Positions 2,507 to 9,098 of a stretch of 9,098 bases of DNA are shown here, in pieces. This DNA is from a bacterium. GTDB lineage: Bacteria > ARS69. Both the position numbers and the translations under genes were made by a program. The stretch is taken from assembly GCA_025774865.1 (NCBI GenBank), contig JALGZO010000354.1, positions 1-9,098 of the forward strand, given 5' to 3'. The notes under the pieces were generated by a model. That model was not told the DNA's origin and ran no database searches. It saw nothing but the letters and a program-made list of their open reading frames with translations. Within the stretch, counting starts at the first letter, position 1; each line of letters begins with the position of its first letter.

Positions 2507-3454
2507 ATGCCGGAACCTGAGTCGCTGACGCCCAAGCGTCGAGAGCTCCTCGATCGATTCGCGGCACATCTCGAATTCGACGTGGGTCTGTCTCCCGGCA
2601 CGGTCCGTCTCTACTCCGCAGACGCCGAGCGCTTTTTGACGTTCCTGGGTGGCTTCTCGGAGATCGCGGATCCGCTCCCGGAGAACGTGGATCGCTCGCT
2701 CGTGGCGGGGTATCTCGCCCGGCGACGGGACACCGGGGCCGGCCGCCGTACGCTCGCGCGGACCGCCTCCGGACTCAGACGATTCTTCCGGTTCGCCCGA
2801 ACCCGGGGGATCCTCGGAACCGAACCGGACGTCCGGGTCCTCGAAAAGGTCCGGTCCCGCCGTCTGCCGCGCGCCCTGCCCGAGGACGGGCTTCTTCGGT
2901 CGCTCGAGGGGCTTGCGGCCACGGGCGTCGCACCGCGTGATCGAGCGATCCTCGAGCTGCTCTACGGATCCGGTTTGCGGGTGTCCGAAGCGGCCGCACT
3001 CCGACTCCGCGACCTGGATGCGTACACGAGGTCGGTCCGGGTTCAGGGCAAGGGGGGCCGCGAGCGAATCGTCCCCATCACGGAGTCCGCTCTGGAGGCG
3101 CTGGAGGAATCGTTTCGCGAGCGCGGGGTCACGGCGGGCGATGGACCCCACGGGCGCTTGCCCGTGTTCGTGAACCGGAGGGGTGCGTCGCTCGGCGTCC
3201 GGCAGATGAGACGTGTCGTGAGCGCCCATCTCCCTCGGAGCGGCGAGCGCGGAGGGTCGTCACCGCACGCACTGCGGCACAGCTTTGCCACACACCTGCT
3301 GGACCACGGAGCGGACCTGCGCGCGGTGCAGGAGCTGCTCGGTCACGCGCAGCTCGCGACGACCGCGATCTACACGCATGTGACGAAGTCGCGGCTACGG
3401 AAGGCATACGATCGAGCCCACCCGCGGGCGGGCGAAGTGAAGGAGAAGCAGTGA
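2507..3454 (+). CDS. xerC: Tyrosine recombinase XerC (CodV-type)
   Basis: The product is 315 aa, slightly longer than the usual 295-305. An N-terminal SAM-like core-binding domain spans about residues 10-100 ([20 protein letters not shown]). A C-terminal catalytic domain has all expected residues: R158 (GSGLRVSEA), K182 (QGKGGRER), H254-x-x-R257 ([14 protein letters not shown]), H280 (LLGHA) and the nucleophile Y289 (AIYTHV). In this family XerC and XerD resolve chromosome dimers at dif during division. The position between trmFO and hslV is that of B. subtilis codV/xerC, favouring XerC over XerD, although sequence alone separates them poorly. ATG 2507 is used; GTG 2504 directly before it is equally possible. 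The ribosome-binding site is weak (GTGGA at 2496). The last four bases overlap the hslV start. Confidence 0.93.
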
Positions 3455-7292: not shown

Positions 7293-7322
7293 TTGACACG
7301 CTCACGAGGCCTCTGCTAGGGT
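7293..7322 (+). promoter_or_regulatory. Sigma70-type promoter for the HU gene unit
   Basis: TTGACA (7293-7298) is a perfect -35 and TAGGGT (7317-7322) a fair -10, separated by 18 bases, with TGC directly before the -10. An A-rich stretch (AATGAAAAAA, 7281-7290) just upstream resembles an UP element. Transcription is predicted to start near 7329, giving a leader of about 80 bases. It lies in the only AT-rich pocket of the window and in a real intergenic gap after dapF. Confidence 0.82.
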
Positions 7323-7408: not shown

Positions 7409-7759
7409 ATGACAAAAGCCGACCTCGTGGATCGCATCACCGGAGCCACCGGTCTCACGAAACGGGACGTGGCGGTCGTCGTGGACCGGTTCATCGACGC
7501 CGTCGGGCGCGCGCTGGCCACCGGGAACCACATCGAGATCCGGGGCTTCGGGAGCTTCAAGATCAAGTCGCGACGAGCCCGGATCGCTCGGAACCCTCGC
7601 ACCGGCGCGACGGTCCGGGTTCCGGAGAAGATCGTCCCTTATTTCAAGGTTTCCAAGGAGCTCAAGAAGGTAATCGAGGACGCCAATCCGGTGATCGAGG
7701 ATCGTGATGCGCCCATCTCCCCATCCGACGCCCAGATCTCGGCCCCCGACGCGTCCTAG
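7409..7759 (+). CDS. HU/IHF-family DNA-binding protein with acidic C-terminal tail
   Basis: The product is 116 aa, against about 90 for plain HU. It is a nucleoid protein that binds and bends DNA as a dimer. The helical N-terminus (TKADLVDRITGATGL) is followed by the conserved RGFGSFKI turn at about residues 45-52, a basic beta-arm, and NPRTG at 62-66 with the DNA-intercalating proline at P63, then VPYFKVSKELKK. Residues 93-116 form an extra tail rich in Asp, Pro, Ser and Ile, without counterpart in standard HU. ATG 7409 is chosen from GAAGGG 7 bases upstream; GTG 7385 would add eight residues without a good ribosome-binding site. HU versus IHF cannot be told from sequence alone. It heads a unit with the 31-aa gene and pilZ, with its own strong promoter. 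Confidence 0.93.
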   Translation: MTKADLVDRITGATGLTKRDVAVVVDRFIDAVGRALATGNHIEIRGFGSFKIKSRRARIARNPRTGATVRVPEKIVPYFKVSKELKKVIEDANPVIEDRDAPISPSDAQISAPDAS

Positions 7760-7797: not shown

Positions 7798-7893
7798 ATG
7801 CCGAGTGGTAAGAAGAGAAAGCGTGCGAAGATCGCCACGCACAAACGCAAGAAGAGGCTGCGGAAGGATCGGCACAAGAAGAAGAAGAAATAG
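7798..7893 (+). CDS. 31-aa Lys/Arg-rich protein, mS38/AURKAIP1-COX24-like
   Basis: This tiny gene lies between HU and pilZ. It has a strong Shine-Dalgarno AAGGAG (7782-7787) 10 bases before ATG and a TAG stop at 7891. The product starts MPSGKKRKRAK, has a central ATHKRKKRLRK and ends in five lysines; about two thirds of its residues are Lys, Arg or His. The pattern K-x-x-x-H-K-x-K-K-R-L-R-K resembles the short basic C-terminal motif of the mitochondrial ribosomal protein mS38 (AURKAIP1/COX24 domain); similar stand-alone proteins of about 30 residues occur in Bacteroidetes and relatives. A ribosome-associated or RNA-binding role is likely but inferred. The family assignment is from memory of the motif, without a search. 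Gene-finders with a minimum length would miss it. Confidence 0.8.
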   Translation: MPSGKKRKRAKIATHKRKKRLRKDRHKKKKK

Positions 7894-7908: not shown

Positions 7909-8280
7909 ATGGCGGATTCAGGGACCAATCGCAGGAAGGACGTCAGGACCAGCGCGCGGGTTCCGATCGAGCTGGCCGGCCAAGGCGAGACTCTCTCCGT
8001 TTCTTCTCTGAATATCGGGGCCGGGGGCGTCTACGTGGAGGTTCCCCGGTTCATCGAGCCGCTGACCAAGCTCCATCTCTCCATGATGATTCCCGGCCCG
8101 ACCCCCGACGAGGAAGCCTCCCCAGTGGAGACGGAGGCAATCGTCGTGCGGGTCCTGCCCGAGCGACCTGACCCCGGCGTCGACCGCTACGAGGTGGCGT
8201 GCGCGTTCCTCGACCTGTCCGAAGATAACCGCGACGTCGTCAACCGCTACATCCTGACGCACCGTACCGTCGCCACCTAG
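7909..8280 (+). CDS. Single-domain PilZ protein (putative c-di-GMP receptor)
   Basis: The product is 123 aa, the size of one PilZ domain with little else. The N-terminal arginine motif is present (NRRKDVR, R9-x-x-x-R13), followed by a beta strand ARVPIEL. The second motif reads N35-I-G-A-G-G40, i.e. [D/N]xSxxG with Gly in place of Ser. PilZ proteins bind cyclic di-GMP through these two motifs and relay it to motility, secretion or polysaccharide machinery. The Ser-to-Gly change occurs in some PilZ domains, so binding is probable but not certain. The C-terminal half (EAIVVRVLPE, YEVACAFLDLSEDNRDVVNRYI) fits the last strands and helix of the fold. ATG 7909 lies 15 bases after the 31-aa gene, with GGGGGAA just upstream. 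A CheA-like kinase gene follows. Confidence 0.88.
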   Translation: MADSGTNRRKDVRTSARVPIELAGQGETLSVSSLNIGAGGVYVEVPRFIEPLTKLHLSMMIPGPTPDEEASPVETEAIVVRVLPERPDPGVDRYEVACAFLDLSEDNRDVVNRYILTHRTVAT

Positions 8281-8296
8281 GCGTCTTCAACCACCA

Positions 8297-8345
8297 CCTC
8301 CCTCGTGCCGATCTCTCGGAGACGGTGTGAGGGAGGCGTTTGTTT
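8297..8345 (+). terminator. Long hairpin with T-rich trailer; its 3' arm is the cheA Shine-Dalgarno
   Basis: CCTCCCTC (8297-8304) pairs with GAGGGAGG (8329-8336); the helix continues through three G-U pairs and CCG/CGG (8308-8310/8323-8325), then TCTC/GAGA (8312-8315/8319-8322) closing a TCG loop. The trailer is CGTTTGTTT (8337-8345). It looks like a Rho-independent terminator for the HU-pilZ transcript, with an imperfect T-tract. The 3' arm contains GGGAGG, the ribosome-binding site for TTG 8344, so the hairpin would also hide that site in any read-through transcript. Confidence 0.65.
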
Positions 8346-9098
8346 GGCTGAATCCTTCGAACAGCTACGCCTGGAGTTCCTCGCCGAGACCGAGGACACC
8401 CTGGAGGCGCTGCAGCACGATCTGAACCGGCTTGGCCAAGCCGTCGGCCGAGGTGCGCCCGAGGCCCAGATCGTCGACCGCGTGTTCCGCGCGACCCACT
8501 CGCTCAAGGGCGTCGCGGGCATGTTCGGTCTGGACGACATGTCCGCCGTCTCCCACGCGATGGAGAGCGTGTTCGAGCAGCTCCGGGAGGGCCGCCTCCC
8601 GTTCGACGACGCCGCGCTCGACCTCCTTTACCGGGGCAACGAATCTCTGCACTCGCTGCTAGCGCACGCATCCGGGCGTACCTCCGGTGACCCGCACACC
8701 GCGGCCGAGACTGTCATCCGCGAGGTCGAACGACACCTGGAGGAACACGCGCCCACCTCGGATAGCACCGCGGACGACGATCCGCTGGCCGCGACGCTCC
8801 CGCAGCTGGGAGAAGCGGAGCGCGACGCCGTGCGCGCCGCGTACGAAGCCGAAAAGACGATCGCCGTCGTGGAGGCGATCTTCCCGGCCACCGGCTACGA
8901 AGAACCGTTCCGCAATCTTCTCGAGGGCATTCGCACGTGGGGCACCGTTCACGGCAGCGCGCCGAGTGACCCGAGCGAAGAGACCGAGACCATTCGCGTG
9001 CGCGTCGTGGTGAGCGGGTCCGAGGAACTGTTCGGACTCATGCGCGCCGTCGGGCCCCTGGGAGCGGAGGTGCTCTCGTGTGATCCTCGCGCGACGCT
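8344..9098 (+). CDS. cheA: CheA-like chemotaxis histidine kinase, N-terminal part (3' truncated by window end)
   Basis: The frame is open from TTG 8344 to the window end, 251 full codons. The TTG has GGGAGG 7 bases upstream; the first in-frame ATG (8521) would cut the Hpt domain just after its histidine. Residues 1-110 are an Hpt (P1) domain: FLAETEDTLEALQHDL, then FRATHSLKGVAGMFGL with phospho-acceptor H52. A Ser/Asp/Thr-rich linker follows (about 118-144). Residues 145-200 (LGEAERDAVRAAYEAEKTI to IRTWGTVHG) match the pattern of the region that follows P1 in some CheA proteins (L-x-x-x-E-x-x-x-L, then a strand, then L-x-x-L-x-x-x-G-x-V), and a second similar module begins near 219. The dimerisation, ATPase and CheW-like domains would lie beyond the edge, so CheA rather than another Hpt protein is probable, not proven. 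Confidence 0.78.
   Translation, partial: MAESFEQLRLEFLAETEDTLEALQHDLNRLGQAVGRGAPEAQIVDRVFRATHSLKGVAGMFGLDDMSAVSHAMESVFEQLREGRLPFDDAALDLLYRGNESLHSLLAHASGRTSGDPHTAAETVIREVERHLEEHAPTSDSTADDDPLAATLPQLGEAERDAVRAAYEAEKTIAVVEAIFPATGYEEPFRNLLEGIRTWGTVHGSAPSDPSEETETIRVRVVVSGSEELFGLMRAVGPLGAEVLSCDPRAT

Follow-up and report, generated by a model that had tools for sequence, protein, structure and literature searches.

The transposase gene of IS10 is protected from read-through transcription by the geometry of its RNA: read-through RNA folds over the ribosome-binding site (RBS), and RNA begun at the promoter of the element itself does not. In phage T4, the long read-through RNA of the lysozyme gene e (as of soc and 49) forms a hairpin that hides the Shine-Dalgarno (SD) sequence, and a stage-specific promoter lies in the 5'-strand sequence of that hairpin, giving a short RNA that is devoid of the arm and well translated (PMC3014915). 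Late promoter, hairpin and RBS are arranged in the same way in the homing endonuclease genes I-TevI and segB of T4 and mobE of Aeh1 (PMC2988022). On the side of bacterial motility, class-3 promoters of chemotaxis genes that depend on sigma-28, that of Escherichia coli aer among them, are of the TAAA-N15-GCCGATAA type (PMC2859248). Here we describe a chemotaxis gene, cheA, whose SD lies in a hairpin with a candidate sigma-28 promoter inside its 5' arm, and we consider it moderately likely that this nested arrangement of promoter and RBS hairpin acts as a switch that makes cheA depend on the flagellar sigma factor sigma-28 (FliA).

The window, that is, the whole stretch of 9,098 nt that was analysed, carries HU, a 31-aa basic protein gene, pilZ and cheA in this order:

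7293-7322 (+): TTGACA-N18-TAGGGT, promoter of the sigma-70 type for the HU-(small basic protein)-pilZ unit, found 5' of HU in 4/4 genera
7409-7759 (+): gene for an HU-family DNA-binding protein (PF00216, 8.5e-30)
7798-7893 (+): gene for a very basic protein of 31 aa, kept at this place between HU and pilZ (relatives in L003 and L004)
7909-8280 (+): PilZ-domain gene, the last of the upstream unit (PF07238, 1.1e-10)
8344-9098 (+): cheA, TTG start, running off the contig; N-terminal Hpt domain (PF01627, 3.2e-15)

The 31-aa protein consists mostly of basic residues and had no Pfam match. A full-length relative of cheA (L003) has the domains Hpt, HATPase_c and CheW. The relatives of cheA align with it from TTG 8344 onwards, and two of them likewise begin with TTG, so that this codon is the right start; a different true start codon, which the preliminary description had named as a finding that would speak against its reading, is not the case. 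An in-frame GTG at 8305 was rejected as the start on the same alignment; it has no SD and lies inside the -10 element and the stem.

Five genomes of the phylum were sampled, G000 (that of the window) to G004, and the cheA locus was found in four of them, one per genus. Neither cheA nor pilZ was found in G004 (82% complete), and a scan of contigs of 84,980 species for cheA relatives returned only two that were already known, together with distant CheAs. The four loci are homologous, so that counts across genera are not independent. In all four genera of the family in which cheA was found (G001, G002, G003 and that of the window), pilZ lies directly 5' of cheA, and all four share a TTGACA-N18-TAGSGT-like promoter before HU. 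Neither the window nor the examined stretches of G002 and G003 showed any other terminator between this conserved promoter and cheA, so that read-through from the HU-pilZ housekeeping unit into cheA would be expected. At the other end of the window, a noncoding gap of 740 nt between the end of a topoisomerase-like zinc-ribbon ORF and trmFO contains a 26-bp unit (GCGTACGCCCGCAGCGGTGTCAACCC) repeated 5.5 times in tandem (541-682) and two long imperfect inverted repeats at 368-493 and 857-968 (31 nt, 87% and 33 nt, 85% complementary, respectively).

The hairpin lies directly before cheA and overlaps its SD:

8297-8336 (+): RBS-occluding hairpin of 18 pairs, which would form only in RNA begun upstream (from folding, opening cost, shuffles and pair conservation)
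8331-8336 (+): cheA SD, GGGAGG, at the base of the 3' arm, spaced 7 nt from TTG 8344-8346
8337-8345 (+): T-rich tail CGTTTGTTT, a weak terminator tail reaching into the start codon; its G002 counterpart is TTTTCTTT

A stem of about 18 pairs ending in GGGAGG 7 nt before TTG, and a T-rich trailer running into the start codon, had been noticed earlier, and both were confirmed: 8297-8310 and 8312-8315 pair with 8319-8336, with A8311 as the one bulge and UCG (8316-8318) as a triloop. Folding of 8280-8370 gave -35.0 kcal/mol (z -2.21), with 2/200 shuffles equally good. The SD was occluded, with a mean unpaired probability of 0.000, and the cost of opening it, calculated with the upstream 60 nt only, was 17.2 kcal/mol. 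None of 94 ORF starts with an SD, drawn from loci of this small phylum, had so high a cost (median 3.4, 95th percentile 9.4); the reference set was made with a crude ORF caller, and at least one ORF in it is probably spurious. Against the same 94 starts, the cheA starts of G002 and G001 were also within the top three. The proposal that the hairpin hides the cheA RBS in read-through RNA is supported by this anatomy and by the conservation described below, and such hiding is probable.

The hairpin had also been proposed to end the pilZ transcript. The hairpin of the window was not called in the terminator scan, for which a stem must be free of bulges, and the T-rich trailer is a weak terminator tail, whose U-tract begins 2 nt past the stem, after CG, and is interrupted by a G. 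In G002, by comparison, a stem of 17 pairs is directly followed by the T-rich tail (TTTTCTTT / TTTCTTT) and was called as a terminator. The cheA hairpin of G001 has no U-tract, and a canonical intrinsic terminator stands apart from it, 3' of pilZ (L004, 1408-1441). Together with the window, these elements place a terminator-like element between pilZ and cheA in three of the four genera, which would suit a reading of the hairpin as mainly the intrinsic terminator of the HU-pilZ unit, overlapping the FliA promoter and the cheA RBS by chance and occluding the SD as a by-product. We hold this to be unlikely, in view of the imperfect, uncalled tail of the window, the absence of a called terminator in G003 and the anti-SD pairing in G001, which is kept despite a separate terminator. 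Termination at the cheA hairpin is thus probable for G002, possible for the window, where anatomy and conservation support it, and not expected for G001.

According to the preliminary description, no separate cheA promoter was visible in the 63-base gap between pilZ and cheA. While no sigma-70 promoter was found there, a conserved element of the sigma-28 type was found inside the hairpin:

8287-8290 (+): putative -35 element TCAA (consensus TAAA) of the sigma-28-type cheA promoter; the same TCAA-N16-GCCGAT stands before ycgR and a flagellin
8307-8314 (+): putative -10 element GCCGATCT (consensus GCCGATAA), inside the 5' arm; the position of GCCGAT is conserved in 4/4 genera
8320-8322 (+): predicted sigma-28 transcription start, 6-8 nt past the -10 octamer, where the 3' arm begins

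The sigma-28/FliA consensus is TAAAGTTT-N11-GCCGATAA, with GCCGATAA as the -10 octamer, and the E. coli aer transcript begins 6 bp past this octamer (PMC2859248). The -10 of the window is close to this consensus. The aligned cheA leaders of three genera share a conserved TGCCGAT amid diverged sequence, and GCCGAT stands at the matching position in G003; the distance from GCCGAT to the cheA start is 37 nt in G000, 36 in G002, 28 in G001 and 31 in G003. Matches to the -35 are weak: TCAA at 16 nt in the window (consensus TAAA(GTTT), about 15 nt), and ACAA/TACA, TCAT and TACC in the other genera. The four leaders were scored against TAAA-N15-GCCGATAA, the E. coli consensus, with weights chosen after the motif had been seen; among random windows of 80 nt, 0.18, 0.18, 1.1 and 1.1% reached their scores. 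The combined value overstates the case because homologues are treated as independent in it. GCCGAT is kept where it is stem-paired (G002), where it lies mostly in the loop (G001) and where the hairpin is absent (G003). This independence from pairing argues that GCCGAT is constrained as a promoter element in DNA rather than as a stem in RNA.

Genome-wide scans with the promoter pattern were too noisy, GCCGAT being common in GC-rich genomes, and position, relatives and scored background were used instead. TCAA-N16-GCCGAT also occurs 5' of ycgR in the same genome (TCAA-N16-GCCGATTCTCC, before a gene with a PilZNR domain) and of a flagellin in G004, both genes expected as FliA targets, and in G002 a glycosyltransferase gene beside flagellin has a related form upstream. 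All five genomes encode fliA (5/5; TIGR02479, above the curated cut-off). The ycgR homologue of the own genome (PilZNR and PilZ) lies on L107, where the sequence upstream of it, TCAAG-N15-GCCGATTCTCC at about 3241-3320 (minus strand), is likely a second FliA promoter. At 14189 of L102 (minus strand, G003), about 3 kb away from fliA, TAAAACTCCGCGCACTCCTTGCCGATTC makes a good promoter of the FliA type, preceding a predicted lipoprotein-like gene.

The conserved sigma-28-type element bears directly on the earlier idea that cheA lacks a separate promoter and that the hairpin, in RNA running from pilZ into cheA, is opened by an anti-terminator or an RNA-binding factor. The shortness of the gap (63 bases), the collinear genes in four genera and the missing sigma-70 promoter would all agree with this idea. 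We regard it as very improbable, given the promoter-like element within the hairpin, the lack of any Rfam regulatory family at the gathering threshold (0 matches in the window) and the variable sequence between the arms, in which, GCCGAT apart, no ligand site is conserved.

Conservation of the stem was assessed by a direct count of pairs in register. In each of the three genera with a hairpin (G000, G002 and G001), the outer ten pairs are formed, none being broken; pairs 1-5, those of the SD, are invariant. Compensatory changes were found across the three genera at pair 6 (C-G/C-G/T-A), pair 7 (T-A/G-C/C-G) and pair 9 (G-T/C-G/T-G). These changes weigh against the reading that the FliA promoter is real and the hairpin incidental, a pyrimidine-rich spacer pairing with the G-rich SD through composition. 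Dinucleotide shuffles of the upstream sequence likewise reached the observed SD occlusion in only 9/2000 cases for G000 and 0/2000 for G002, and shuffling of the spacer only in 30/2000 and 2/2000, respectively. The SD pairing of G001, however, is no stronger than in its shuffles (1350/2000 reach the observed occlusion), another FliA-like spacer in the phylum (that of L102) is likewise pyrimidine-rich, and G003, the most distant relative, has no comparable hairpin, its SD opening cost still being 10.2 kcal/mol. Taken with these points in its favour, an incidental hairpin is, in our estimate, improbable. Loss of the stem in close relatives, which had been named as evidence against a functional element, is seen in part: the stem is kept in two of the three relatives and lost in the most distant, G003.

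The reading that we prefer, a sigma-28 promoter nested in the RBS hairpin, follows from how the predicted start and the stem lie with respect to each other. The predicted start is at 8320-8322 and the 3' arm runs from 8319, which by position would give a short RNA devoid of the 5' arm and unable to form the hairpin; in G002 and G001, the 6-8-nt rule puts the start at, or a few bases from, the beginning of the 3' arm. A start between stem and gene had been named as a finding contrary to the earlier reading; the start predicted here is inside the stem, not downstream of it. In RNA begun at the predicted sigma-28 start, opening of the SD is predicted to cost less than in the long RNA: about 10.8 instead of 17.3 kcal/mol in G000, 4.6 instead of 12.5 in G002 and about 1 instead of 11.4 in G001. 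In the short transcript of G000, the SD is still predicted to pair with early cheA codons (mean unpaired probability 0.005), so that the gain in accessibility is relative.

On these grounds, the FliA-type promoter TCAA-N16-GCCGATCT (8287-8314), spanning the 5' arm of the hairpin, would start transcription at about 8320-8322 and yield an mRNA with a leader of about 22 nt, in which GGGAGG is free of the 5' arm and cheA can be translated. RNA entering from the HU-pilZ unit would contain both arms and fold into the 18-pair hairpin, hiding the cheA RBS, and the T-rich tail may, in addition, terminate part of this read-through RNA. Such an element would insulate a flagellar-class gene from a constitutively transcribed neighbour without a dedicated regulator. 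Since the putative promoter lies inside the hairpin and the short RNA would lack the 5' arm, there is no need to postulate an anti-terminator or a binding protein, contrary to the earlier suggestion. Promoter activity, start point, translational silencing and termination are all parts that we infer from the sequence. A stricter version, in which one 40-bp sequence is at once the terminator of a housekeeping operon, the translational block on read-through RNA and the FliA promoter, with cheA strictly gated by FliA through RNA geometry alone, is put forward tentatively and seems to us rather doubtful.

The locus would work on the principle known from gene e and I-TevI of T4, here under the flagellar sigma factor. 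As in gene e, the SD of cheA lies in a stable hairpin of the long RNA and the (here putative) promoter within the 5' arm. The locus differs from gene e in that it concerns a bacterial chemotaxis gene and a sigma-28-type rather than a phage late promoter, has a terminator-like tail in two genera and a housekeeping operon upstream, and is known from sequence alone. I-TevI, segB and mobE belong to mobile elements in host genes, in which the arrangement limits premature endonuclease synthesis and FliA has no part. Protection from read-through transcription would also be common to IS10, there in the context of a transposon. With E. coli aer, the locus would share the promoter type on a chemotaxis gene; its -35 is weaker, and its putative promoter doubles as an arm of the RBS-occluding hairpin. 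We know of no description of a sigma-28 promoter serving as such an arm, and none inside an RBS hairpin was found in the open-access literature, which is not proof of absence.

Stage-specific promoters inside RBS hairpins are documented for phage late genes. If the arrangement is conserved before a chromosomal chemotaxis kinase in this little-studied phylum, bacteria would use it to prevent the expression of flagellar-class genes from housekeeping read-through RNA, and a hairpin that might be taken for an orphan regulatory RNA would become explicable once a promoter other than sigma-70 is sought.
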